A DNA stretch of 23,503 nt from a virus, in the IMG/VR virus record IMGVR_UViG_3300025325_000140, positions 1 through 23,503 of that record. One strand, written 5' to 3'. A program made the position numbers and the translations under genes. Below, piece after piece: positions 1 to 18,629 of the stretch (positions are counted from its first letter, which is position 1; every line of letters starts with the position of its first letter). The notes beneath the pieces were generated by a model. It had not been told where the DNA came from, ran no database searches, and saw nothing but the letters and a program-made list of their open reading frames with translations.

Positions 1-109
1 TAACATAATCATCTTCAAGTTTTTGTTTGATTTCAGTTACTTCTCCCCTAATATAGGAAATGTCTTTTGCCATTTCGGCCAATTGTACTTCGGGTGATTT
101 CTTTACCAT
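1..109 (-). CDS. Small coiled-coil protein, XhlA/holin-accessory-like (3' end outside window)
   Basis: Thirty-six codons are visible from an ATG at 109 down to the window edge, beginning MVKKSPEVQLAEMAKDISYI. The visible part is charged and has heptad-like spacing of hydrophobic residues (L10, M13, I17, I20, V24, I27, L31), as expected for a short coiled coil. Small phage proteins of the XhlA type start with such a helix and end in one transmembrane segment that helps lysis; that end is outside the window, so the family is inferred. The ATG lies 4 nt after the U-tract of the terminator at 114-144, so expression from the upstream promoter would require readthrough. No Shine-Dalgarno sequence is visible. 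The reading frame is clear; the function is uncertain. Confidence 0.6.
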   Translation of the reverse strand, partial: MVKKSPEVQLAEMAKDISYIRGEVTEIKQKLEDDYV

Positions 110-113
110 AATT

Positions 114-144
114 AAAAAATGCCAGCATCAAAATGGTGCTGGCA
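114..144 (-). terminator. Intrinsic terminator/attenuator of leader element 1
   Basis: On the minus strand an 8-bp stem TGCCAGCA/TGCTGGCA (arms at 144-137 and 127-120) with a 9-nt loop is followed by six T (119-114). This is a textbook Rho-independent terminator. It follows the gene ending at 198 but also lies between a candidate promoter (165-194) and the start at 109. It could therefore end the upstream operon, attenuate the downstream gene, or both. Its left arm shares TGCC (144-141) with the neighbouring AGCAC hairpin, so the two stems cannot form together. Confidence 0.8.
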
Positions 145-153
145 GTGCTTGCC
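141..153 (-). promoter_or_regulatory. AGCAC-loop hairpin, leader element 1
   Basis: The minus strand reads GGCA-AGCAC-TGCC: a 4-bp stem with an AGCAC pentaloop. The same loop on a differently sequenced but equally paired stem occurs at 11166-11178 and 18569-18581, each time between a TTGACA box and an intrinsic terminator. Directly 5' is ATGCTTA, loosely like a boxA sequence. I interpret it as a structured RNA element of a leader; its ligand or partner is unknown. Confidence 0.55.
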
Positions 154-164
154 TAAGCATTTTA

Positions 165-194
165 ATGGAATCAAACCAGCAGCCATTTTGTCAA
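165..194 (-). promoter_or_regulatory. Candidate sigma70-type promoter for leader element 1
   Basis: On the minus strand TTGACA (194-189), an 18-nt spacer and TTCCAT (170-165). The -35 box is perfect but the -10 is weak (3 of 6). Support comes from comparison: four other intergenic sites have TTGACA, TGGT or TAGT ten nt later, and a T-N4-T hexamer after 18 nt. Here the spacer carries TGGTTTG, giving an extended -10 TG. The -35 starts 3 nt after the stop codon of the gene at 198-1067. Confidence 0.45.
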
Positions 195-197
195 CCC

Positions 198-1067
198 TTA
201 ATATCGAGTTACAAAGTTAGTTCCTCTTTCTTTCATCAATTCATCTAATATCGCGGCATATTCGTTCATTACACTTGCAAGATTAGACGCATAAACATCT
301 CCTGCGTTAGGATTTCTTTTTGAAACAGGTCCTGCATACTTGTTTGAGTACCACTTCAGGTCTTCTCCCTGTCTGAAGGGTTCATAAATCATTGAGTTAT
401 GAACTTGTCCTGGGTCAAATCCCGCTTCAGCAGTTCTTCCTCCAATTGCCGAAATAAAATCAATTATTGCCTGGTCTATGTCCTTGGGATTATAAGTTGG
501 AACAAAAACTCCCCAGCCGAGGGCTTGTTTTGGTTTATTTACCAATTCTGGTTGCTCTTCAAAGTCTCGCAATCCCCGCGACTCCAAATGAGACTGTGCT
601 ACGGTCAAAAATGGATACTTTTCATAAATTGGATATTTCATTTGTTCTTCTATTATTTTGGCTGCATATTTTGAAATGGGAGCTCCTTTTGAGCCTTTTT
701 CAAGTGCTTTTATAAGCTCTTCTCTTGTTGGATTGCCAGGGACTGGTGTAGGAGTCGGAATTCTGGTTGGAACGGCCGTAGGGGCTGCTGTAGGAAGCCT
801 GGTGGGCACTACTGAGGGCGTAGGGGAAGAAAGTGGCCGACCATAGTAATCATAACCAAATTTCTTCTCTAATGCCCCCCTAACGTCTCTTGGTTTATTT
901 GCCCATTCGTTTGCTCTATCAAGGGCTCCAACAATCTTAGTTTCAACTGTTTTGGGAATTGTCTTCAGAAAAGGAACAAAAGACTGGGCCTGAGTCGCAA
1001 TGTTTTGCGGGGAATAATTACTTAAAGTCTTTATGTTTTTTAGTGCTTGTTGAAATGCTGATTCCAT
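198..1067 (-). CDS. Virion-associated protein with probable C-terminal muralytic (glucosaminidase/lysozyme-like) domain
   Basis: A 289-residue protein. Residues 1-75 are helical. Residues 81-113 form a Pro/Thr/Val linker with repeated PTP and VPT units. The C-terminal domain (about 120-289) has a lysozyme-superfamily look: FLTVAQSHLESRG around residues 153-165, with Glu162 where the catalytic acid would sit, followed by GWGVF (184-188) and the helix FISAIGGR (204-211). That resembles phage hydrolases that open peptidoglycan locally. It is last in the block with the 2707-residue protein, so a role in cell-wall passage during DNA ejection is plausible. I start at ATG 1067, 1 nt after the upstream stop (TAATATG). 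An in-frame ATG at 1157 would overlap the previous gene by 89 nt and add an atypical Arg/Gln/His-rich leader. The enzyme class is an inference. Confidence 0.7.
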   Translation of the reverse strand: MESAFQQALKNIKTLSNYSPQNIATQAQSFVPFLKTIPKTVETKIVGALDRANEWANKPRDVRGALEKKFGYDYYGRPLSSPTPSVVPTRLPTAAPTAVPTRIPTPTPVPGNPTREELIKALEKGSKGAPISKYAAKIIEEQMKYPIYEKYPFLTVAQSHLESRGLRDFEEQPELVNKPKQALGWGVFVPTYNPKDIDQAIIDFISAIGGRTAEAGFDPGQVHNSMIYEPFRQGEDLKWYSNKYAGPVSKRNPNAGDVYASNLASVMNEYAAILDELMKERGTNFVTRY

Positions 1068-1068
1068 A

Positions 1069-1770
1069 TTAGTAAATTGTTGCTCCCTGAACATTTGGAG
1101 TTTGCGGTCTGATTGTTGATGTGGTTGCAGTCTGTGGTGACGGTAACCTGTATGCACTAGCTTCGTACCCTGACGTTAATGGTGCCCTGCCCAACCCACC
1201 GAGTGCCCCAAAGGCTGCCTGTCGTTCTCCTCGCAATAGTTGAGAAAGAAATCTTTGTGCCATTTCTTTTTGAAGCTTTTCCGTATTCTCAAGAAAAGTT
1301 CGGTAGCCACCTGGCCCTGCAGATGTTCCTCCTCCTCCAGCTGGAGACGGACCATAGAATTTGGTACTAGCAGGAGGTAATAGCGCGGGAGCACCAATAC
1401 CAGGAGTTGTGGGCATTCGTGGAGCCAGAATTTTGTTCACATAATTAGCTAATGCAAAAGCTCGATTGGCGGCCGTTCCCATTTGGTTGGCAGGAATGGC
1501 CATATGAAGAAGCAAGTCTCTTAACGTATTTAACGTTCCACCATTTACAACCCCAGCGCTTGCCTCTTTCCTTTGTGCTGCCTGAATTTTTTTAGAAGGA
1601 GTTGAAATTTTTTCTTGTCCTGTTGTTCTTAACATAAGCCCACCAGGAAGTGTGGCCACTGAATAGTCTCGTATTTGACTTTGGGGAACAGGGGCCCTGC
1701 TGATTTTCAAATTAATCAACTTATTAAAAGTTTCCCTTGCTTGTTCTATTGCGCTTTTTATTTGTGCCAT
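1069..1770 (-). CDS. Hypothetical virion-associated protein (ejection-module)
   Basis: A 233-residue protein I do not recognise. The N-terminus MAQIKSAIEQARETF is helical and resembles the start of the preceding giant protein (MATFKSALEEALGF), suggesting a shared docking helix. A central helical part (about 75-120) is followed by a Pro/Gly/Ala-rich flexible stretch with a GGGG run near residue 145, a second helical part (about 158-200) and a Gln/Thr/Pro-rich tail. There is no signal peptide or clear membrane span. It is coupled to both neighbours by 1-nt gaps (TAATATG). The GGAAG at the end of the giant gene may serve as a weak Shine-Dalgarno. A structural or ejection role is inferred from position only. 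Confidence 0.75.
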   Translation of the reverse strand: MAQIKSAIEQARETFNKLINLKISRAPVPQSQIRDYSVATLPGGLMLRTTGQEKISTPSKKIQAAQRKEASAGVVNGGTLNTLRDLLLHMAIPANQMGTAANRAFALANYVNKILAPRMPTTPGIGAPALLPPASTKFYGPSPAGGGGTSAGPGGYRTFLENTEKLQKEMAQRFLSQLLRGERQAAFGALGGLGRAPLTSGYEASAYRLPSPQTATTSTIRPQTPNVQGATIY

Positions 1771-1771
1771 A

Positions 1772-4700
1772 TTATCTTCCTAATTGACTGATTGTCATCG
1801 GCATGGTTGCCTTTGGTAATGCTATTTCTGACAAACTTGGTAATTTCAAACTCGCTCCATATCTATTTGGGATAACAGACGCAGGTATATCGGGAATACC
1901 AGTTGTCAACGCCCTTAATTTCAAAGGAGCAATATCGCTGACCCCAAGTTTAATTCGAGCTTGTTTTGCCTGCTCCAAACTCGGTATCTTAAGACTTATC
2001 TGTTTTTCATAAGGAGCAAATCCACCGTAACCTTCGGTAGGAGAAAGCCCCAGCTCTGCCCGAGCCATTTCGGTTTTCGCAGCAGTTGCTTCGAAGTATG
2101 CCTTTACATCAGGGTTTGCATTTACATATCGGCTTCTTGCCCCAGTTCCTTTTGGAAGAGTATTAAAGTAATCTAACTTTGCTTGTAAATCTGGATTCGG
2201 TTCAAGAAAGTTTTGGTTGGTCATGTGGCTATTTACCTCTTCGACTGTCCACCCTCCTCCTTCTGTTTCGTTTAAGATTTTAGCAATTTGTACTGAATCA
2301 TAAGTTCCATGCAAGAATAGTTTCTGAACGCTTTCCATTCTCTTCTGGGCATTTTCTCCCTGTGCCTTGTCTTCAAAAACACCAAGACGAATCATTTCTT
2401 GTTGCCACTGCTTGGTTTTATCCCAATACTCAGGAAGCCAATCCATGCGCTTGTCTCTTTCTACCTTATATTGTGGGTCTCCAGGATAAAATGTTTTTAG
2501 CAACAAAACGCCGAACTGCTGGTCTGGCGTCAATGTATAGAAGGGGGCAATGGGGGTTCCTTGTTCCTGCGCAGATTTGATTGCAGCTTCTGTTTCCGCT
2601 CGAACAATATCAGGATGTGCAAGTCTATCTAATGCATTAGCCATTGCGCTTCTTTTGTCATAAACAACTAACCCGTCGTCTTCGTCAAAGAAATATCCAC
2701 CCTGTTTATGTAATTTGTCCCAAATTGCCTGGTCTTCAGAAGAAAGAGTTCCCCGAACTTCCTTCAAATTCTCATAGAAATATCGGGACTGCAAAGATTT
2801 GCTTTCATAAAACCTTGTTGGGGCTTCGAGGGCTTCAAGCATATTTTGATAGTCTGGTCTCTTTTTATATTCGACTCCCCAAACATTCGCATTTGTAGAA
2901 TGAAACAGCGCTTCTATCCACGGATGATTATACTGAAGGGCAATATATATAGCAGATTTCTTACGTCTTACTTCTGGCGTATCGTCATCTGCAAAAATTT
3001 TTCTGCCGAAATAATCGCTATTTGTAGCAGCATCAAATACAGGGCGAATCATGAAAGAAAGAAGATTTTTTCCCGTCTCAGCCATCTCTTGTGTGTCCCA
3101 TTGTCTGGCCGCATCTAAGAAACCAAGTCCATATCGAACGACTGTTCCTGTAGATGGGAACAGAGGTATACCAAGAGTGTATCCATCATTTAATGGAATC
3201 AAAAGCTTGTCCTTTGTTTCTGGAGGATTTTCTTTCAACCTTCTTCCTGTTAACGCATAGTTAAGCATATTGTAGGCTGCCAGTACAAAGATACTTCCTA
3301 ACATTAGATTAAAGTTAGTTCTATTTTCCAGTGACAAAGGATTATTCAACCTAATTTTTCCCCCCTCAACCCTAACGGGCAAGGTTGACGTTAAGGTATT
3401 TAACCACGACCTCACCATTGTCTCCCTGTAGTGGGGAGCAAAGAAAAATGTTGTTAAAACGTCATTCATTACCTTACTTCTTAGCGCTCTGTCTTTGGTG
3501 TCTACAATTCCATAAAACTTTTTAACAGCATCCGCCGCGACATCTGCTGCCTGTGTAGAAGTATATCCTTTATGAAGTGCAGCCTTTTCAATCTCATTAA
3601 ACATGCTTATTTGAACCAGTGGCATGAACTTTCTGAAGGTTGCATCAAAGATTGCCTTTTGCCATGTTCCCCTGAATCCTTTCCCAACAAACTTGTTTTT
3701 GAAGGAAGGGTTCATTAGGTCTTCAAGAGTATAAGTGTGTCGAAGCGGAATATTTCTTGCCACCATCTTCTTGATTTGGCCAAGGTTATTCTTAAAGAAT
3801 TTAGTTGATTGTCCTGGAATTAATGGACGCAAAGTGCTCCCGACCAGTGAAGTCATTCTTTTTATTGAATAAAGGGGAGAGGTTAATAATCCACCAATAT
3901 TTGCAACGGTTTCTCGATAAAGTTGCCCGAATGTCCACGCATTAAGTGGTGTGTATGGAATACCCCCAGAAAGACCCAGGTCCTGCATGGCACTTGAAAC
4001 TTGAGCAATTGCGCTCATGCCTTTTTCAAATGCCCCCGTTGGTTCTTGTGGAGAAAATACTTTATTTAGTGTGGCCGCAATAGTTTTGGGAGCATAATAG
4101 TCTCCTGCAACCATTCTTTTGTCCCCAGTTGTGGTATCAACTGAATATGCTCTTCTTATTCCTGGGGCGACAACGGGCATGTATCCTGGTAACTTTCTTG
4201 CTTGTGGATAAGGAACCAAAAGTCCAGTTTCTCGCATTGATTTGAAAGCTTCAATGTTTGCTATGGTTTGATATAGTTTTCCAGCGTACTGGGCTATGAT
4301 TGGGGCAGGATGAGTGAACTTTGGTTTAAGCCCCATTGCAATACCCTCTTCATAAGTTGGAATAATTCTTTCGTTTGCAAATCGGAACTTAGTCTTCCAT
4401 TGTCGATAGGCGCTTGCCACGTCCTCCATCTTTCCCTCCCAAATGTGGGTGATGTAGTTTTCAAGATAACCAATATCAATTTCAGGAGTATCTTTTGCCA
4501 CTTGATAAAGTTGGTCAAAAAGCACCTTTATTCTTTGAACATGCTCGTTAATTACTGGGTCTTCTGAACCACCAGCCTCGACCGCACGGATTACATCCAT
4601 CCCTTTTTCTTCTGGAATATCAAGGAGTTGTTCTGCTAATTCAGTTGCAGTTATTTGAGCTACGTCGTGTTGGCCAATCATCCAAGACAAAATCGTGTTA

Positions 4701-7700
4701 AATTTGTCTTTATCGTTTCTGGACGTCAAGTCTGCAGGAAGACCTTCGACTTTTGCTTTATTTCTGAAATCTGTCTGTGTTTCCTTTTGTGCCTCTTCAG
4801 TAAATCCTTCTGGCCCTTCAGGGGGGGCAGGCGGAGGCGCATTTCGAGGTGGTTCCGCAGGTGGTACTGCTGGTGGGGGCGCCACCGCCTCTCCCTGAAT
4901 CAGCCTAGTCTCTCGGTTTTTTTCTAATGCCTGCATTGCCAACTCCTCATTTGTTGGCGCAGGTTTCTCTACCGCAATTGTTTCAGTTTGTAGTCCTTTA
5001 ATTTCTTTATCAATTCCCTTGACTAAATTGGCCAATTCTTTCTTCAGGGTCGTAAGCTCTTTTTTATACATCAACTTCCCAAACCTCTTTGTGTAGAAAT
5101 CGTAATTTCGAGAGGCATCCTCGATGTCGCCAATTTGTTTTACAAACTCGGCTCTTACATCATTAAGGTGATTAATTCGTTCCATTGCCTCTGGAGCAAT
5201 TCTTTCAATTGTCTCTGGGGCAACTGGTTGATATCCTCGATACTTTGCCAGAGCTTCCATACCCAGCTCTTCCTCGGTCATTTCGGTTGGAGTTTTGAAC
5301 ATATCGACATGGAATCCTCTGAATTTTCTTAGGTTTCTCATTGCCAACCAGAAATCTTCCGTGTTTTCGATGCTTTCTTCAATTTTGGGGGCCTTCTTTT
5401 CTACACGGAACGCCTCAACCGCCTTTTTGTCTTTGTCAGTTATTTTAGTCTCCCACCATGAAATTCCTTGCTCATCCTCTACTTCTTTTAGGTCTGGTCT
5501 AAGTTTTCTTAAAAACTTAGGATATTCTTCTTGGTATCGGTCATAAATCGTTTGTTGTTCTTCGGTCAAATTTGCCGCATCAAAATCTTCAACCATTCCC
5601 TTTGACAATTGTTCCGTGTACGCATCTGGGCGAAGAACAATAATCTCGTCCCCCACGGCATAGTAGCTTTGTCCTGTGTCATCAGACCACTTCTGTGCAA
5701 ACGCAAGGGGGGTAGGATATTCTTTTCTTAGGTCTTCATCAATTACCTCACGTAGTTTTTCTTCCAAATCTTGACGATTATTTTTGATATAGGTAACTGG
5801 GTTTTCTCGATATTTAGTCATTTCGCCGACAGGAAGAACTGAATTAATCATTCGACTTAAATCCATATCAACTACGCTATCTGCGCTAAGATGGTCGAAT
5901 TCATATACAATCCTGTCCTGAAAACCATTTTCTATTTCCTCGTCAACAGCAGTCTCCCAGTTAAATTCATTATCGATTTCATAAGAAGATACGGCAGTTA
6001 CTGTGTCACCAAAATCTTCAAGAACTGTCCAGTCTTCTCCCCCATACTCAAAAGTATCTCCTGGAACTGCATCCTGTGGCACAACTCCACTACCGACATA
6101 TCCTTCAATCCGCGAAATCGTTTCCCCTGTTGGAATTTGAATTTTGTCTTTTCCGTCCGTGGCTGCTTTTGCAATTTCTTCCTTGAAAATTCTTTCAAAC
6201 CACACGTTCCTGTACGGCCGTATTAACTTCTCCATCGTAACCCCCTCTGCGGGAGGGTCGGGAAGTAAACTAATAACTTTTTGATAGAATTTATTTCTCT
6301 CTTGAAGTTCGGGGATATATTCCTCTCTTTTGGCAATATTTTCTTCATCCATCCTAATATAAGTTTGGTATTCTTCTCTCTTCTCCTGCGTTAAAGTTTT
6401 GTCTTCAAGATTTCTTTTAAAAACCTCAAGTTCTTTTTGCCAGTCCGCTATTTGCCCCTCTGAGTAAGTAATTCTTCTTTCTCCCTCGTCAATGTATCCT
6501 TGGATTTTTCCCGCATGCCTTTTGTCCAAAAAAGTTTCCTTCACAATATCTTTGGTTCGTTTAGTTGCATTTTTTATTCCTTCAATTGAATCAAGCTCAG
6601 AAGAGGTAACCAATTCGTAAAAACGATTTAATGACTCAGGAGAAACAAACTGTCGTTCAAAATCCTCTGTAGGAATCTGGAAAAGGTCGGACTGAATTTC
6701 AATTAATCGTCTGGTTCCGCCAGTTTTTGCTCCATATGGATGCAAGTCGTCAGTAAATTCACTCATGTCATCCATGTCCTCCACCCGCACATGGGCAAAG
6801 TAATTGGGGAAATTTCTGAAGTGTCGTCCCATCTCTGTTGGGAAGGGAGACGAATAAATTCTTTCTCGGTAATCATAGACGCCACCCCGTACTTCGTCAG
6901 GAAGAACAATATTCTCCCAGCTGGTTTCTGTTCCAGCCTCAAGTGGAAGCAAGTTTCGTCTATATTCTTTTGCAAATTCGGCAACATTAACTTTGCCGTC
7001 TACTGCTAAGCGATTAGCAATATTTCTTGCCAAATCTCTTTCCGCCTGTTTCAACCCGCCCCTGTTGGTTAGATTCTCAATATGTTGAACGGAAGTCACT
7101 CCTTCTTCTCCGCCCTTAACTTCGTTTATCAATGACTGGATTATTTTAGAGGTAAGGTTGGGTTGATGAACTCCCATTACAGATACCCCTGGGGCATCCC
7201 TGTAAGAAAGAGCAAACTGTCCAGACCGAACACCCCTTGCTCTTTTCTTTGCAAGCATCTCTTGATAAATTGTCTGAACCTGGTTCCTCTTTCCAATTAA
7301 TCCTTTTAGGTTGTTCCATAGCCAATCAAAGAATTGCTGAATTTTTCCAGCCACTCCAGTTTGCTTGTTCTGCATCCAGGTCGCAAAGTTTTCTGCAAGA
7401 GCTTCCTCTCCCGCCTTGTCTTCTTTTATTGACAGCTCCTCCTTTATTTGTTTCAGGGCGTCCTGATGAAGCTTTTCATCCGCAAACATGTCTACATACG
7501 CATGGAATGCCTCATGATAGACGGTTTGGTCTTGAACTTTTCCGTCTTGTTCTACTGCTTGAATAAGAGCTGAAGTATATTTTCCTGCTGCAATTTCTCC
7601 TGTTGAAGTCACAATTGTGCCAGGGTCATTTGCCATAAAGGCAATTTCACCTTCGTCAAAAAATTGACCAAGAGTATTTAAAACCTCTGAAGTTTCAAGG

Positions 7701-9895
7701 TTGTATGGAGATTCTTCTACTTGGACCCTGTAGCCCTCTGTGGGTGGAACGAAACTTCTAAGTTGACTGTAGTCTCTGGTTGCCCCATCCTCCTCGCTGC
7801 CTCCGACCAAGAGGCGTCTTGCGGCCCAAGCCACCGTGATTTCGGGTTGTATTTCTTGACTAAGGCTTCCATCTCTTTTTGTGTATAACCCTCTGATGGC
7901 TTCTTCAATTTGGTTTGCTTCGATAATGAATTGCTCATAATCTTTAAACTTGCTTATATTATACAACAAAACTCCCGAATTGTCACTATGGAAAGTTGAA
8001 CCTGCAAGACCCAAACTTTGAATTTTATCAGAAATAATCCTTTGTTCTGTGTTGGTTAGGGGTCTTGAAAATCTGATGTTTTTCTCTGGTTCAAAAGTAA
8101 ATCCACTCGGTAATTCTTTACCATAAACTTGACTCTCGGGCAATGCAGAAAAAGTTTCAGAGAAATGAACGGTTCTCTGGCCCCATGTTTCTGCAACGTT
8201 AGAAATTCTTTTTATAAATTCTGCTTCAGATTCTTTTGGCATTGTTGCTTTTACTATTAAGGTTGGTTCAGACTCGCCAAAATAGGTTGAGTGGCTTAGT
8301 GACACATCTAGTTTTATGTCGAGGGTGTCTGCGAATGCGTTGACCAAATCATTTCGTCCCTGCTCCAAAAGTTGCTGTCTCACTGTTGCTGCCTGCTGGT
8401 AATTTCCAGCTGTCCATGCCTGGTTGTATTGGTTGGTTAAATCAAAATAAACAGTTCCAGTCATGGCGGGGTTGGTTGTAGCTGGAGTAATTCCAACACT
8501 TCTGGAAATTTCTTCGGGAGCAACTTGGGGTTCAACTCTGAATTGTTCTTCTGGCCGCTCTTCTTCTGCCACGGTTGTTTCAACTGGCGTAATGTTCGCC
8601 ATACTTCCCTGGAAAGGAGCCATTCCTACATTTGCAAATCCGCCCAGCAATGTGCCAAAAATTCCTGCTTCTGGGACACCAGCCATTAATCCTGCCAAAC
8701 TTCTGTAATTTTCATCATAAACTGCTTTTCCAACATTAGATACGATTTCCTGTATTGACTCCTGGACACCCTCTCTAAAAACTGCGTCTTTAACAAATTC
8801 ATACGCATGTTGCTGTATCGACTTTTGAACCGCCGCTCTTGTTAGGTCATCCAACTTTGCCATAGGGAAAGCTCTTTCCAGATAAGCATTTACAATACCA
8901 ACACCAATTCCAATTGTCCTTGCTGTTGGTTCTGGAACATTATCTGCAAGAGCGTCTGTGTAAGAAGTTCCACCCTCTAATACGAAAGCCGTTCCCAATG
9001 CAGCATTTCCTGCCAAGACAGGATTTTTTGTCACAAGGAAGGTTCCAACGGCTGCAGCCAAATTAAAAAACAATGAAGGAGCGTTAAGTAAAAGTCCTCT
9101 TGCTACAAATTCTGGGTCACTAAATTTCTGTTTTAATCCCCATTCTGGATTATCTGCCTCAATGGCATTCTGCTGAAGAAAATCTTCTACCTTCTGTTTG
9201 TCTTCCAATGCTGAAGTAGACAATCCTTTTGCCCAATAGTCATACACCCGCGCGTATTGTTCTCTTTCTTCTGGAGAATTAAAGTAATATGCAGGAGTAG
9301 CATATTGCAAAACCTTTCCCATTCCCTGTCCGCGCATTATGTCTGACACACTTCGAAGAGTCATCGCCGCAGTTCCTTTTGTTGCCAGTTTAAGCTGTTC
9401 GTCTATATATGGCCCATATTTGCTGACATATTTAATTGGGGTTTCGGTTTGCAATTTTACTAAATCCTGTGCCATTCTGGATTTCCAGAAACTTGGTCCT
9501 TGCTCAGCTAATTCAGGAGTGAAATATTGTTTTGGTCCAGCCCTAACGATATCGGCGGCGCTTCGAATATTTGCAGTAAGAGCCTTGCCAGCTTGAGAAA
9601 TGTCTTGGACTGGTCTGGTTTTTGATATTGTGGTTTGAATATCCCCAAGTCTCTGTGCGGTAGGGGTAGTCCAAAAACTTACTTTGCTTTCTGGTTTAAA
9701 ATAATCTTTTGCGTCACTTAAGAATCGACTGACGCTTTGTCGTCTTTTTCGTTCTTCCTCCTCACGACGACGAGTCCAGTTACTATAGTCACTTGTTAAA
9801 TTGGAGACACCAGAAGAAACAGCGCTTTTTGCGCCTTGAGCGACACCTTTTACAAAACCGAGAGCTTCTTCCAAAGCTGACTTAAACGTTGCCAT
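1772..9895 (-). CDS. Giant polyvalent internal-virion/ejection protein with HExxH metallopeptidase-like domain
   Basis: A 2707-residue protein without frameshifts. In order: a charged helical N-terminus (basic/acidic run near 43-53); a hydrophobic region at about 262-312, possibly membrane-inserting; EGVQESIQE near 376, a motif type I associate with large phage polyvalent proteins; a metallopeptidase-like domain with HEAFH at 794-798 and a possible third ligand in EEALAENFA (Glu831 or Glu835); a module with YFAHVRVEDM near 1030 and LIEIQSDL at 1064-1071, then a charged coiled coil (about 1090-1210) and PTGETI near 1255; further charged helical parts; a Pro-rich linker (about 1665-1700); and a C-terminal region of about 1000 residues with a hydrophobic stretch near 2190-2215. 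The HExxH and IEIQSDL modules match what is known of large polyvalent proteins carried in virions and injected with DNA. The role is inferred from that and from its neighbours. Start ATG 9895 has no Shine-Dalgarno. Confidence 0.9.
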   Translation of the reverse strand: MATFKSALEEALGFVKGVAQGAKSAVSSGVSNLTSDYSNWTRRREEEERKRRQSVSRFLSDAKDYFKPESKVSFWTTPTAQRLGDIQTTISKTRPVQDISQAGKALTANIRSAADIVRAGPKQYFTPELAEQGPSFWKSRMAQDLVKLQTETPIKYVSKYGPYIDEQLKLATKGTAAMTLRSVSDIMRGQGMGKVLQYATPAYYFNSPEEREQYARVYDYWAKGLSTSALEDKQKVEDFLQQNAIEADNPEWGLKQKFSDPEFVARGLLLNAPSLFFNLAAAVGTFLVTKNPVLAGNAALGTAFVLEGGTSYTDALADNVPEPTARTIGIGVGIVNAYLERAFPMAKLDDLTRAAVQKSIQQHAYEFVKDAVFREGVQESIQEIVSNVGKAVYDENYRSLAGLMAGVPEAGIFGTLLGGFANVGMAPFQGSMANITPVETTVAEEERPEEQFRVEPQVAPEEISRSVGITPATTNPAMTGTVYFDLTNQYNQAWTAGNYQQAATVRQQLLEQGRNDLVNAFADTLDIKLDVSLSHSTYFGESEPTLIVKATMPKESEAEFIKRISNVAETWGQRTVHFSETFSALPESQVYGKELPSGFTFEPEKNIRFSRPLTNTEQRIISDKIQSLGLAGSTFHSDNSGVLLYNISKFKDYEQFIIEANQIEEAIRGLYTKRDGSLSQEIQPEITVAWAARRLLVGGSEEDGATRDYSQLRSFVPPTEGYRVQVEESPYNLETSEVLNTLGQFFDEGEIAFMANDPGTIVTSTGEIAAGKYTSALIQAVEQDGKVQDQTVYHEAFHAYVDMFADEKLHQDALKQIKEELSIKEDKAGEEALAENFATWMQNKQTGVAGKIQQFFDWLWNNLKGLIGKRNQVQTIYQEMLAKKRARGVRSGQFALSYRDAPGVSVMGVHQPNLTSKIIQSLINEVKGGEEGVTSVQHIENLTNRGGLKQAERDLARNIANRLAVDGKVNVAEFAKEYRRNLLPLEAGTETSWENIVLPDEVRGGVYDYRERIYSSPFPTEMGRHFRNFPNYFAHVRVEDMDDMSEFTDDLHPYGAKTGGTRRLIEIQSDLFQIPTEDFERQFVSPESLNRFYELVTSSELDSIEGIKNATKRTKDIVKETFLDKRHAGKIQGYIDEGERRITYSEGQIADWQKELEVFKRNLEDKTLTQEKREEYQTYIRMDEENIAKREEYIPELQERNKFYQKVISLLPDPPAEGVTMEKLIRPYRNVWFERIFKEEIAKAATDGKDKIQIPTGETISRIEGYVGSGVVPQDAVPGDTFEYGGEDWTVLEDFGDTVTAVSSYEIDNEFNWETAVDEEIENGFQDRIVYEFDHLSADSVVDMDLSRMINSVLPVGEMTKYRENPVTYIKNNRQDLEEKLREVIDEDLRKEYPTPLAFAQKWSDDTGQSYYAVGDEIIVLRPDAYTEQLSKGMVEDFDAANLTEEQQTIYDRYQEEYPKFLRKLRPDLKEVEDEQGISWWETKITDKDKKAVEAFRVEKKAPKIEESIENTEDFWLAMRNLRKFRGFHVDMFKTPTEMTEEELGMEALAKYRGYQPVAPETIERIAPEAMERINHLNDVRAEFVKQIGDIEDASRNYDFYTKRFGKLMYKKELTTLKKELANLVKGIDKEIKGLQTETIAVEKPAPTNEELAMQALEKNRETRLIQGEAVAPPPAVPPAEPPRNAPPPAPPEGPEGFTEEAQKETQTDFRNKAKVEGLPADLTSRNDKDKFNTILSWMIGQHDVAQITATELAEQLLDIPEEKGMDVIRAVEAGGSEDPVINEHVQRIKVLFDQLYQVAKDTPEIDIGYLENYITHIWEGKMEDVASAYRQWKTKFRFANERIIPTYEEGIAMGLKPKFTHPAPIIAQYAGKLYQTIANIEAFKSMRETGLLVPYPQARKLPGYMPVVAPGIRRAYSVDTTTGDKRMVAGDYYAPKTIAATLNKVFSPQEPTGAFEKGMSAIAQVSSAMQDLGLSGGIPYTPLNAWTFGQLYRETVANIGGLLTSPLYSIKRMTSLVGSTLRPLIPGQSTKFFKNNLGQIKKMVARNIPLRHTYTLEDLMNPSFKNKFVGKGFRGTWQKAIFDATFRKFMPLVQISMFNEIEKAALHKGYTSTQAADVAADAVKKFYGIVDTKDRALRSKVMNDVLTTFFFAPHYRETMVRSWLNTLTSTLPVRVEGGKIRLNNPLSLENRTNFNLMLGSIFVLAAYNMLNYALTGRRLKENPPETKDKLLIPLNDGYTLGIPLFPSTGTVVRYGLGFLDAARQWDTQEMAETGKNLLSFMIRPVFDAATNSDYFGRKIFADDDTPEVRRKKSAIYIALQYNHPWIEALFHSTNANVWGVEYKKRPDYQNMLEALEAPTRFYESKSLQSRYFYENLKEVRGTLSSEDQAIWDKLHKQGGYFFDEDDGLVVYDKRSAMANALDRLAHPDIVRAETEAAIKSAQEQGTPIAPFYTLTPDQQFGVLLLKTFYPGDPQYKVERDKRMDWLPEYWDKTKQWQQEMIRLGVFEDKAQGENAQKRMESVQKLFLHGTYDSVQIAKILNETEGGGWTVEEVNSHMTNQNFLEPNPDLQAKLDYFNTLPKGTGARSRYVNANPDVKAYFEATAAKTEMARAELGLSPTEGYGGFAPYEKQISLKIPSLEQAKQARIKLGVSDIAPLKLRALTTGIPDIPASVIPNRYGASLKLPSLSEIALPKATMPMTISQLGR

Positions 9896-9937: not shown

Positions 9938-11119
9938 TTAAATAAGACCCCTTCGTCTTAGTTCTTCTTCCGTATTTCCTGTGTTTCCTGCATACGGATT
10001 ATAAGAAAGTTGAGAGGTTGCTGCTGTTGATTGACCAAAGCCAATATTTATTTCAGACATGATTGGTTGGACGATTGCTGCTATTTCTTGTGGACTAAAC
10101 GACCTATTTTCAACCTTTTGTGCTTGCTCTACTGCAAACTGTGCTAGACCCATTCTAAATGCTTGCTCGTTGTTTTTGACAGACTGTGCTTGGTCTGCAG
10201 CGTTCTGAAGGGCTTGCAATTTCGCAGACGATTTATCTCTCTCAAGTTCATATCTTCGGCCAGCAATTTCATTCAATGCTGTTTGGAAATTGCCATTGAT
10301 TGTTCTAATTGCATCTTCTTTCCAAAGTTTAAGGTCATCCTTTTTCTTTGAAACATAGTTATTCAAACTATTTCTATTCTGCTCCGCCTGTTGAACACCA
10401 GCCATTTCTTGTTGGCCAAGTTTACCCCTAGTTCTTAGGAATTCTTGATTCACTAACTCCTGTACAGCAGGGCCCGCCGAAGAGCCAGCCCCAAACCTCG
10501 ACAAGCCCTGTTGGATAAGGTTATTATATGACCGTAATGCGTCTGCGTAAGCACTCCTTACAACTTCTCCCAATTTTCTTTCTTGTTCTGTAAGAGTAGA
10601 TTCTAATTCTCCCTGTTCTGTTCCAATCTGTTCTCCCCACACACCAGCCTTATTTTCTACTCCTGAAATATCTTCTGTTTGTGCCCCTCGAAGTGATTGC
10701 TCAAGTTGATTAAGATAATCGTAGCCAGGACCAAAAGCTTTTTCTATCTCAGCGTTAACATCGTAACCGCCCCCACCGCCTCCGCCACCACCAGTTTGTC
10801 CAGACTTCCACTTCGCTTCCCAGTCTGCCTGTGCTGCCGTTGGGTCCCAGCCAATGTATTTATCTGAAGGATAACTACCAGCACTACCTTGTTGTTGTTG
10901 AGGTTGCGAGGCGGGCTTTGCCGCTGGTTTTGTTCCTCCTGAAGTTGTTGCTGAAGAACCAGTCCCAGAAACCCAAGCCGACTGACCAGTGGGAGATTGA
11001 TTAGTATAAGTATCCCCTGGCCCATACTTAAAAGAACTAAGGTCATCTGACCCATATTGGAATTCGGGGACATCAGATTTAGTTCCGCCTCCTAATATAT
11101 TAGAAAGAAAGTTCCACAT
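9938..11119 (-). CDS. Coiled-coil internal virion (ejection/core-like) protein
   Basis: A 393-residue protein. The first 120 residues are low-complexity (Gly/Ser/Thr/Gln, a QQQQ run near 75 and nine consecutive Gly at 110-118), with a Trp-containing segment between (YIGWDPTAAQADW near 88-100). From about 120 to 350 it is almost entirely helical and rich in Gln, Glu, Ala and Lys, typical of coiled-coil core or ejection proteins of podoviruses. The C-terminus is charged (EEELRRRGLI). It is the first gene after leader element 2 and precedes the giant protein by 42 nt, in a position comparable to the small internal core proteins of T7-like phages. That homology is inferred from layout, not demonstrated. 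Start ATG 11119 has the AT-rich context ATACATATTATG. Confidence 0.8.
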   Translation of the reverse strand: MWNFLSNILGGGTKSDVPEFQYGSDDLSSFKYGPGDTYTNQSPTGQSAWVSGTGSSATTSGGTKPAAKPASQPQQQQGSAGSYPSDKYIGWDPTAAQADWEAKWKSGQTGGGGGGGGGYDVNAEIEKAFGPGYDYLNQLEQSLRGAQTEDISGVENKAGVWGEQIGTEQGELESTLTEQERKLGEVVRSAYADALRSYNNLIQQGLSRFGAGSSAGPAVQELVNQEFLRTRGKLGQQEMAGVQQAEQNRNSLNNYVSKKKDDLKLWKEDAIRTINGNFQTALNEIAGRRYELERDKSSAKLQALQNAADQAQSVKNNEQAFRMGLAQFAVEQAQKVENRSFSPQEIAAIVQPIMSEINIGFGQSTAATSQLSYNPYAGNTGNTEEELRRRGLI

Positions 11120-11133
11120 AATATGTATTCAAT

Positions 11134-11162
11134 AAAAAAGCGACCAATTAAATTTGGTCGCT
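11134..11162 (-). terminator. Intrinsic terminator/attenuator of leader element 2
   Basis: On the minus strand a 9-bp perfect stem AGCGACCAA/TTGGTCGCT (arms at 11162-11154 and 11147-11139) with a 6-nt loop runs into six T (11139-11134). It is the strongest terminator in the window and lies 14 nt before the start codon at 11119, downstream of a candidate promoter. A transcript from that promoter must read through it to express the ejection module. Confidence 0.9.
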
Positions 11163-11165
11163 CAT

Positions 11166-11178
11166 ATCGGTGCTCGAT
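11166..11178 (-). promoter_or_regulatory. AGCAC-loop hairpin, leader element 2
   Basis: The minus strand reads ATCG-AGCAC-CGAT. All four base pairs differ in identity from at least one of the other two copies, but pairing is kept and the AGCAC loop is invariant. It is separated from the terminator by 3 nt. Immediately 5' is AAGCTCAACA, which resembles boxA (GCTC...AACA). Confidence 0.6.
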
Positions 11179-11196
11179 TGTTGAGCTTATGTTTCA

Positions 11197-11226
11197 AGTA
11201 AAACAAACCATTCGCAAGCTTGTCAA
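11197..11226 (-). promoter_or_regulatory. Candidate sigma70-type promoter for leader element 2
   Basis: On the minus strand TTGACA (11226-11221), an 18-nt spacer with TGGTTTG at positions 11-17 (extended -10 TG) and TTTACT (11202-11197). The spacer motif and spacing match the other four sites of this set. Transcription would start near 11190, about 10 nt before the AGCAC hairpin. Confidence 0.5.
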
Positions 11227-17824: not shown

Positions 17825-18517
17825 TTAATCTCTCCCTATCCTGAATCCCATCTTTCTTAAGGGAGCAGCTTGCACATACTGGGGGTTGCCATACGAATTG
17901 TACTTCGCCAGGTTGGCCGCCTCGACCATCTGCATAAGCTTTTCCCTCGCTTTTGCTTCCTGTTGTTGAAACCTGGGGTCAGAACGGGCTTCGAGAATAT
18001 AAGAAATTGTTCTGTCAATTAGGAACTGAGAATCAGAAGTTTTGGGCACCTCTGAAGGAGAAGCAAGTGATGTTGGGGTTGAATAGTATTGAATTTGAAT
18101 TGATGCGCCCGACGAAAGAGTTGCTGGGTGAAAAATCAAACTATGTCCATCTTGAAAGTTTCCAAGTTGGTATACATATTTGTCGGTAGTAGTATAAAGT
18201 CCTTTTTCCTCTTCAGGAATATCAGGAAATTCTTCACCTTCAGCCAACCCACTAACCACATAAAGGCGGGGAGCAGCAGCCATCTTTCTAAAATTTAGAG
18301 GAAGAGTAAGGGTTGCTTGGCTAGTTCCCGTCACTGCAGGATAAAAGTGTTCCCGAAGTTCTTCCCAGTCGTTGGATTCTGCCCATTCAAAATAAGACCT
18401 GTTTATAAATTTAAGCCACAAGTTGAACTCTGCTCCCCCTGAATCAGGTGCATCAGATTCCTGGTTTACGGTTGCAGCTATTGACTGCATTATTTCTTCT
18501 ACGGTTAGTCTTGCCAT
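17825..18517 (-). CDS. Head-tail adaptor-like protein
   Basis: A 230-residue protein. Helical N-terminus (MARLTVEEIMQSIAATVNQE), an aromatic helix LWLKFINRSYFEWAESNDWEEL cut by Asn/Asp near 34-55, then a beta-rich middle with LTLPLNFRKMA, YVYQLG and QIQYYSTPTSL, and a helical C-terminus (FLIDRTISYILEAR, KAREKLMQM). A helical bundle holding a beta insert, placed directly before a nozzle-like gene, is the plan of T7 gp11-type connector adaptors. It ends in a short basic tail (KMGFRIGRD). It is the first gene after leader element 3, with the terminator 18 nt before its start codon. Function is inferred from architecture and order. Confidence 0.68.
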   Translation of the reverse strand: MARLTVEEIMQSIAATVNQESDAPDSGGAEFNLWLKFINRSYFEWAESNDWEELREHFYPAVTGTSQATLTLPLNFRKMAAAPRLYVVSGLAEGEEFPDIPEEEKGLYTTTDKYVYQLGNFQDGHSLIFHPATLSSGASIQIQYYSTPTSLASPSEVPKTSDSQFLIDRTISYILEARSDPRFQQQEAKAREKLMQMVEAANLAKYNSYGNPQYVQAAPLRKMGFRIGRD

Positions 18518-18534
18518 AATAATCGCTTAGCAAT

Positions 18535-18563
18535 AAAAAACCCCACCTTTTAAAAATGGGGTT
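18535..18563 (-). terminator. Intrinsic terminator/attenuator of leader element 3
   Basis: On the minus strand a 7-bp stem AACCCCA/TGGGGTT (arms at 18563-18557 and 18545-18539) with an 11-nt loop runs into a T-tract (18540-18535). It can end the operon that finishes at 18637. It also lies between the promoter candidate at 18600-18629 and the adaptor gene. Confidence 0.8.
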
Positions 18564-18568
18564 CCAGC

Positions 18569-18581
18569 GGCGGTGCTCGCC
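18569..18581 (-). promoter_or_regulatory. AGCAC-loop hairpin, leader element 3
   Basis: The minus strand reads GGCG-AGCAC-CGCC, a 4-bp stem with the same pentaloop as the hairpins at 141-153 and 11166-11178. It is 5 nt before the terminator stem. TTTCTTTA directly 5' resembles boxA. Confidence 0.6.
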
Positions 18582-18599
18582 TAAAGAAACTGTAATTTA

Positions 18600-18629
18600 A
18601 CGATAGCCCACCAAAGATTAATTTGTCAA
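18600..18629 (-). promoter_or_regulatory. Candidate sigma70-type promoter for leader element 3
   Basis: On the minus strand TTGACA (18629-18624), an 18-nt spacer with TGGTGGG at positions 11-17, and TATCGT (18605-18600; 4 of 6). It begins 8 nt after the stop codon of the preceding gene. The predicted transcript start is near 18593, just before the boxA-like TTTCTTTA and the AGCAC hairpin. Confidence 0.5.

Follow-up and report, generated by a model that had tools for sequence, protein, structure and literature searches.

Putative transcription-attenuation leaders with covarying antiterminators recur ahead of virion and lysis modules in a group of uncultivated phages

A recurrent leader element, made up of a TTGACA-type promoter, a short covarying hairpin and an intrinsic terminator, is found in a set of uncultivated phages. 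We propose, with a probability of about 70%, that each copy is a transcription-attenuation switch in which the terminator would be the default and a trans-acting factor would hold an alternative antiterminator fold. The source sequence is the window, by which we mean the whole stretch of DNA that was analysed (positions 1-23,503 of IMGVR_UViG_3300025325_000140). The architecture of the element, its recurrence, the covariation of its upper stem and lower helix, its conserved adenines, its overlap with the terminator and the relative stabilities of its folds were all computed.

Leader architecture in the window

The window contains three leaders on the minus strand (194-107, 11226-11117 and 18629-18515), each with a promoter, a hairpin, a terminator and an ATG. 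A preliminary description of this DNA had reported a shared minus-strand architecture for three intergenic regions, and it is present at all three positions, together with the hairpin sequences, the TTGACA-to-loop gaps of 39, 46 and 46 nt and the TGGT ten nt past TTGACA that were listed there.

The promoter of leader 1 (18600-18629, minus strand) consists of TTGACA at 18629-18624, an 18-nt spacer with TGGT at 18613-18610 and the -10 element TATCGT at 18605-18600. In putative antiterminator 1 (18561-18590), the upper hairpin GGCG-AGCAC-CGCC (18569-18581), with an unpaired A at 18582 on its 5' side, is accompanied by a lower helix of GTTTC (18590-18586) and GGAAC (18565-18561), and GGAAC lies within the 5' arm of the terminator. 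Intrinsic terminator 1 (18530-18565) has a stem at 18565-18537 and then a T-rich tail. The gene 3' of the leader (17825-18517, minus strand, start at 18517) encodes a homologue of the SU10-type adaptor with a sub-threshold Pfam match.

Leader 2 is built in the same order on the minus strand. Its promoter (11197-11226) has TTGACA at 11226-11221, an 18-nt spacer with TGGT at 11210-11207 and the -10 element TTTACT at 11202-11197. Putative antiterminator 2 (11160-11186) contains the upper hairpin ATCG-AGCAC-CGAT (11166-11178), an unpaired A at 11179 on its 5' side and a lower helix of GCTCA (11186-11182) and TGAGC (11164-11160), the latter within the 5' arm of intrinsic terminator 2 (11131-11163; stem 11163-11138, then a T-rich tail). 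The next gene (9938-11119, minus strand) lies in the virion gene region and encodes a 393-aa protein of unassigned function that is common to 11 records.

Leader 3, also on the minus strand, has the -35 element TTGACA at 189-194, TGGT at 178-175 and a weak -10 element, TTCCAT, at an 18-nt spacer. The upper hairpin GGCA-AGCAC-TGCC (141-153) has an unpaired A at 154 on its 5' side and belongs to putative antiterminator 3 (137-159), the lower helix of which is formed by TGCT (159-156) and AGCA (140-137), with AGCA again within the terminator 5' arm. Intrinsic terminator 3 (114-144) comprises a stem at 144-120 and a U-tract at 119-114. The downstream gene starts at 109 and is truncated; by homology with G006 and G008, it is of a small lysis-region type.

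A terminator follows each hairpin, as described earlier, and the distance from the U-tract to the ATG ranges from a few to ~18 nt. The ATG follows the U-tract so closely that there is no space for a second promoter, and therefore transcription has to cross the terminator. TTGACA alone and AGCAC alone are not above chance frequency in the window. Two other minus-strand promoters of the TTGACA type (15854-15810 and 22690-22644) have neither hairpin nor terminator and run straight into genes. The window also contains a 2707-aa open reading frame (1772-9895, minus strand) without a Pfam family, which by eye resembles a large polyvalent-type phage protein.

Recurrence in related phages

Searches with a 655-aa protein and with the adaptor led to relatives, some at 57-79% identity and others more distant. 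A fixed rule that combines a promoter, a hairpin with a 4-bp stem and a 5-nt loop, and a terminator identifies 30 units in 20 phage records (713 kb), whereas the same rule yields 0.8 per set on dinucleotide-shuffled sequence. The ordered promoter-hairpin-terminator combination is non-random. In total, 40 leader copies were collected from 12 phage records, with at most six per record. Thirty-two of them were curated, and eight were contributed by R1, a covariance model built only on the hairpin region, in which promoter, terminator and start codon play no part. The preliminary description had suggested such a search of relatives for more copies, and in all eight copies that R1 added, a promoter precedes the hairpin and a terminator stands between it and the start codon. 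Two more R1 hits of identical sequence (L062 and L063, E 0.59) are without promoter, terminator and start-codon context.

Copies ahead of the adaptor gene were located through that gene and not through the hairpin. Their hairpins are GGTA-AGCAA-TACC in L005, AGTC-AACAA-GACT in L006, AGTC-AGCAA-GACT in L007 and AGTC-TGCAC-GACT in L008; no TTGACA promoter was recognised for the L008 adaptor leader. L005 also encodes a long serine-rich protein with SPSAS/SESAS repeats (1-1617, plus strand), which ends just upstream of the leader.

Held-out phages were obtained by capsid and portal alignments, which brought ~35 further contigs. R1 has 13 hits in these contigs, and 11 of the 13 precede the portal gene by 75-150 nt. 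When the regions upstream of portal genes were all read by eye, whatever their R1 score, the unit was found in ~21 of 29 distinct regions and was absent from ~8. The portal leader set comprises 20 leaders with a clearly defined hairpin, chosen by eye, one of which (L098) duplicates a G012 copy; the outer terminator is present in all 20. A related phage, L093, carries a group I intron at 4685-4990 (plus strand; Rfam RF00028, score just above gathering).

The annotated relative MW202497 (24% identity) has no such leader. In the host search, GTDB contigs (A1) gave no match and MAG contigs (A5) gave distant relatives only, all without a unit of this type. Rfam covariance models have no match in the window up to E=1 and three matches in ten relatives, none of them at a leader, in line with the preliminary description, which did not recognise a known family. 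No phage system of this kind was found in the open-access literature, where most subscription journals fall outside coverage. In a distant group, L064 (G018; minus-strand offsets 1690 and 11064) and L071 (4295) have a promoter-leader-terminator layout with the hairpin GAY-WAYCAT-RTC and a GGC/GCC lower helix overlapping the terminator; these hairpins are possibly a second antiterminator family.

Downstream genes and promoters

Among the genes 3' of the leaders are that of the adaptor, in about nine phages, and those of portal, tail or fibre proteins; others encode a small lysis-region protein and HNH endonucleases (G006 and G013). The proposed location of the promoter-leader-terminator unit before late modules holds in the window and in the relatives. 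The unit precedes the HNH endonuclease genes at G006 47465 and 52133 and at G013 1827, as if these mobile endonucleases carry or acquired the late-gene switch. T[AG]GT occurs 8-13 nt past TTGACA in 31 of 57 promoters, compared with 4.2 expected after shuffling. The spacing from the -10 element to the hairpin is tight, with a median of 19 nt.

In three relatives, ThiF/E1-like, ThiS/ubiquitin-like and JAB-like genes lie near one another (G010 28076-31402, L049; G012 54178-57308, L053; G014 97255-98898, L059). The ThiF/E1-like assignment has a Pfam E-value of 5e-14 for one copy, the ThiS/ubiquitin-like assignment is below the Pfam cut-off, and the JAB-like assignment was made by eye with no Pfam match. 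This neighbourhood suggests a phage ubiquitin-like conjugation module.

Upper hairpin

The upper stem has 4 bp, and both sides change at all four pairs across the copies. The covariation counts are inflated, since pairing was the criterion by which most copies were picked; the gene-anchored copies, which were not picked in this way, show covariation too. Compensatory changes in the window had earlier been taken to suggest selection on RNA structure; the stems do covary across relatives, but the three window copies alone are too few for covariation. The loop, earlier regarded as constant, is AGCAC in those three copies, but relatives carry AGCAA, AACAA, AACAC, AGTAC, AAAAA, AGAAA and others, and the pentaloop consensus over the copies is A-R-N-A-M. 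Position 1 of the loop is A in 36 of 40 copies and position 4 is A in 35 of 40. The upper stem is flanked on its 5' side by an unpaired stretch that ends in A (one bulged A only in several copies), and the base immediately 5' of the stem (-1) is A in 37/40. These unpaired adenines are conserved on stems that otherwise vary freely, a pattern suggestive of recognition by a protein.

Lower helix and terminator overlap

What is the role of the segment 5' of the hairpin? It can pair with the terminator's 5' arm, a complementarity that the preliminary description overlooked in likening the segment to boxA. Columns -20 to -2 are low in information and contain no conserved boxA sequence. The segment instead pairs and varies in step with the terminator 5' arm, as a strand of an antiterminator helix, and boxA/nut was dropped as the main reading because of this covariation. 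In relatives, the paired strands are GTTTCA/TGAAAC (L005), ATTTCT/AGAAAT (L006), GTCAA/TTGAC and GTTAAA/TTTGAC (G012), and GATTAA/TTAATC (L094). The lower helix is mostly 4-7 bp long, with only 2 bp in G009_13963 and G009_L045_11876.

Since the register of the lower helix varies and MAFFT could not align it, permutation tests were used in place of an alignment count. The upstream half of one copy was paired with the downstream half of another, and the energies were compared. The copies' own pairings have a total energy of -339.7, compared with a permuted mean of -267.5 (sd 9.9), and none of 20000 permutations was as good. With swaps inside one phage, 5/20000 permutations were as good; the corresponding figures are 18/40320 for the eight held-out copies and 0/20000 for the 20 portal leaders. 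Most of the first 32 copies were selected by rules that took no account of the lower helix or the loop bases.

The antiterminator and the terminator have nucleotides in common in all 31 analysed copies, at least two in 30 of them, and some weakly overlapping copies sequester just 2-3 nucleotides of the terminator base. Because the terminator 5' arm doubles as the 3' strand of the lower helix, the two folds exclude each other. In 29/31 copies, the terminator has the greater stability, with a mean of -13.6 kcal/mol vs -8.1 kcal/mol for the antiterminator. Five of the 20 portal leaders (L094, L095, L098, L101 and L118) have a long outer terminator with a second, inner terminator in its loop, and the inner terminator lies outside the antiterminator overlap.

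Proposed mechanism

In the proposed switch, RNA polymerase would start at the TTGACA promoter and make a leader of ~60 nt. The 5' half of the leader would fold first as the antiterminator, which is predicted to comprise a lower helix of 4-7 bp, an internal loop or bulge nearly always ending in an unpaired A, a 4-bp stem and the pentaloop. Unaided, the more stable terminator would prevail, and the virion or lysis module behind it would be off. A trans-acting factor may read the A-rich loop together with the unpaired A and thereby stabilise the antiterminator, allowing the polymerase to pass the terminator at every copy. From the greater stability of the terminator in 29 of 31 copies, we infer a stabilising factor, which is probably a phage RNA-binding protein and most likely would be produced before the late phase. 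Leader transcription, the default-off state, switching by a protein and the phage origin of that protein are predictions from the sequence. Whether one phage-encoded RNA-binding protein of an undescribed family reads the antiterminators before most virion and lysis modules, so that the late regulon would be turned on via many attenuators rather than via a single late promoter or a single processive antiterminator, we judge at even odds.

Searches for the factor covered known families in records that may be incomplete. The NusG/LoaP model PF02357 is absent in 16 records, CAT_RBD of BglG/LicT (PF03123) and the ANTAR domain (PF03861) are each absent in 12, and the Q models PF06530 and PF03589 are absent in nine. 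Shared small basic open reading frames were screened for an N-like or RNA-binding factor and gave no assignable candidate; N proteins are short and fast-diverging. These negative searches weigh against the model, as do the copies with a 2-bp lower helix or an overlap of just 2-3 nucleotides, the inner terminators of five portal leaders and the ~8 portal regions in which the unit is absent. A ribosome-dependent leader peptide is disfavoured, given the leader length of ~60 nt and the presence of ATG or GTG in only 9/37 leaders.

Alternative explanations

The preliminary description had left open antitermination at a nut- or put-like site, attenuation and small terminator-ended RNAs. Covariation of the supposed boxA segment with the terminator arm speaks for local attenuation through mutually exclusive folds and against the nut- or put-like version. 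We consider it unlikely that the pentaloop hairpin, alone or with an N-like peptide, modifies the polymerase for passage through this and later terminators, with the lower helix as the base of the element. The hairpin does stand immediately upstream of a terminator, loops such as AACAA are near the P22 boxB loop GACAA (PMC12550061), and the inner terminators beyond the antiterminator overlap in 5/20 portal leaders suit a processive mechanism better. However, the boxA-like segment is unconserved in sequence, terminator overlap in 31/31 copies is unexpected for a processive site, and a processive system needs no site before every module. Competition between the two folds at a set ratio, which would tune late-gene dosage as a fixed partial attenuator without any factor, is distinctly improbable. 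It would suit an antiterminator that forms first without need of a ligand, as well as the negative factor searches, but the conserved unpaired adenines (position -1 and loop positions 1 and 4) would be useless in a purely thermodynamic competition; the stems can vary freely, and these bases cannot.

The T[AG]GT element in the spacer could be the DNA site of a Q-like, promoter-bound factor that loads on the polymerase and carries it past the terminator, and a promoter with a terminator close behind is generally known as the lambdoid late-promoter layout. This explanation is nevertheless very improbable: the frequent T[AG]GT is present as well at window promoter 15854, where there is no leader, Q models are absent in nine records and the covarying RNA helices would be unexplained. 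A promoter and a strong terminator ~60 nt apart would also give small terminator-ended RNAs of ~60-70 nt, which might act in trans with read-through as an incidental event. Such RNAs would be a by-product of the proposed switch, but as the function of the units they have very little chance of being correct. Orthologous modules have the units directly before their start codons, a free small RNA would have no need of covariation between terminator arm and leader, and this account alone leaves the lower helix unexplained. Barely credible, finally, are DNA hairpins that act as single-stranded promoters in the style of the N4 virion RNA polymerase. Short covarying stems with fixed loop bases would fit them on general knowledge, but the fixed place behind a sigma-70-type promoter and ahead of a terminator, as well as the lower helix with the terminator arm, fit RNA, and no virion RNA polymerase was noticed in passing.

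Comparison with known systems

The usual means of switching phage late genes are a new sigma factor or polymerase, activators, or a single processive antiterminator (Q). If the attenuation reading is true, a separate antiterminator switch at each virion module would represent a different regulatory logic for late genes, and the phages would provide a new RNA family, a predicted RNA-binding regulator in uncultivated phages and compact orthogonal transcription switches. With a promoter, a leader, a terminator and a covarying, mutually exclusive fold, the leaders would belong to the known antiterminator-attenuator class as a recurrent attenuation switch before virion and lysis modules. We class them as a new RNA family in an uncultivated phage group, without the defining features of RAT, ANTAR target, LoaP, nut boxA or Q systems.

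Lambdoid Q acts from a single late promoter, where it binds the promoter DNA. The phage leaders resemble the Q system in that a late promoter is followed by a terminator to be crossed for virion genes, but they are many, have covarying RNA structure and occur without a Q model match in nine records. In the lambda N/boxB system, phage leader RNA forms a short stem capped by an A-rich pentaloop, and the loop type differs among phages (PMC12550061). The leaders share the short hairpin with an A-rich pentaloop; unlike nut, they have no conserved boxA or nut-typical spacing, overlap a local terminator and are repeated before each late module.

RAT antiterminators, which are targets of BglG, SacY and LicT, form a single imperfect stem-loop of ~30 nt with one or more internal loops that overlaps the 5' part of the terminator, and the two folds are exclusive (PMC3369931). 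The phage leaders likewise have an imperfect ~30-nt stem-loop overlapping a terminator, but they differ in fold and conserved bases and occur in many copies over the virion modules of one phage, with no CAT_RBD protein in 12 records. ANTAR target RNAs (of NasR, AmiR and EutV) consist of two hairpins, each with A1 and G4 in a hexaloop, and occur in several copies interspersed within one locus, as in eut (PMC3369931). The leaders resemble them in the short stem, the loop A1 with a fixed base 4, the terminator alternative and the multiple copies, but they have one hairpin, a pentaloop with A1 and A4 and a pairing lower helix, and the ANTAR domain is absent in 12 records. LoaP leaders of dfn and mln contain a small hairpin with a UNCG tetraloop in a 417-nt leader and require a NusG paralog (PMC12691694). 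The small 5'-leader hairpin upstream of an intrinsic terminator is common to both, whereas the loops of the phage leaders are A-rich pentaloops rather than UNCG and no NusG paralog was found in 16 records. By working principle, RAT and ANTAR target RNAs are closest to the phage leaders, and by layout, LoaP leaders are closest.
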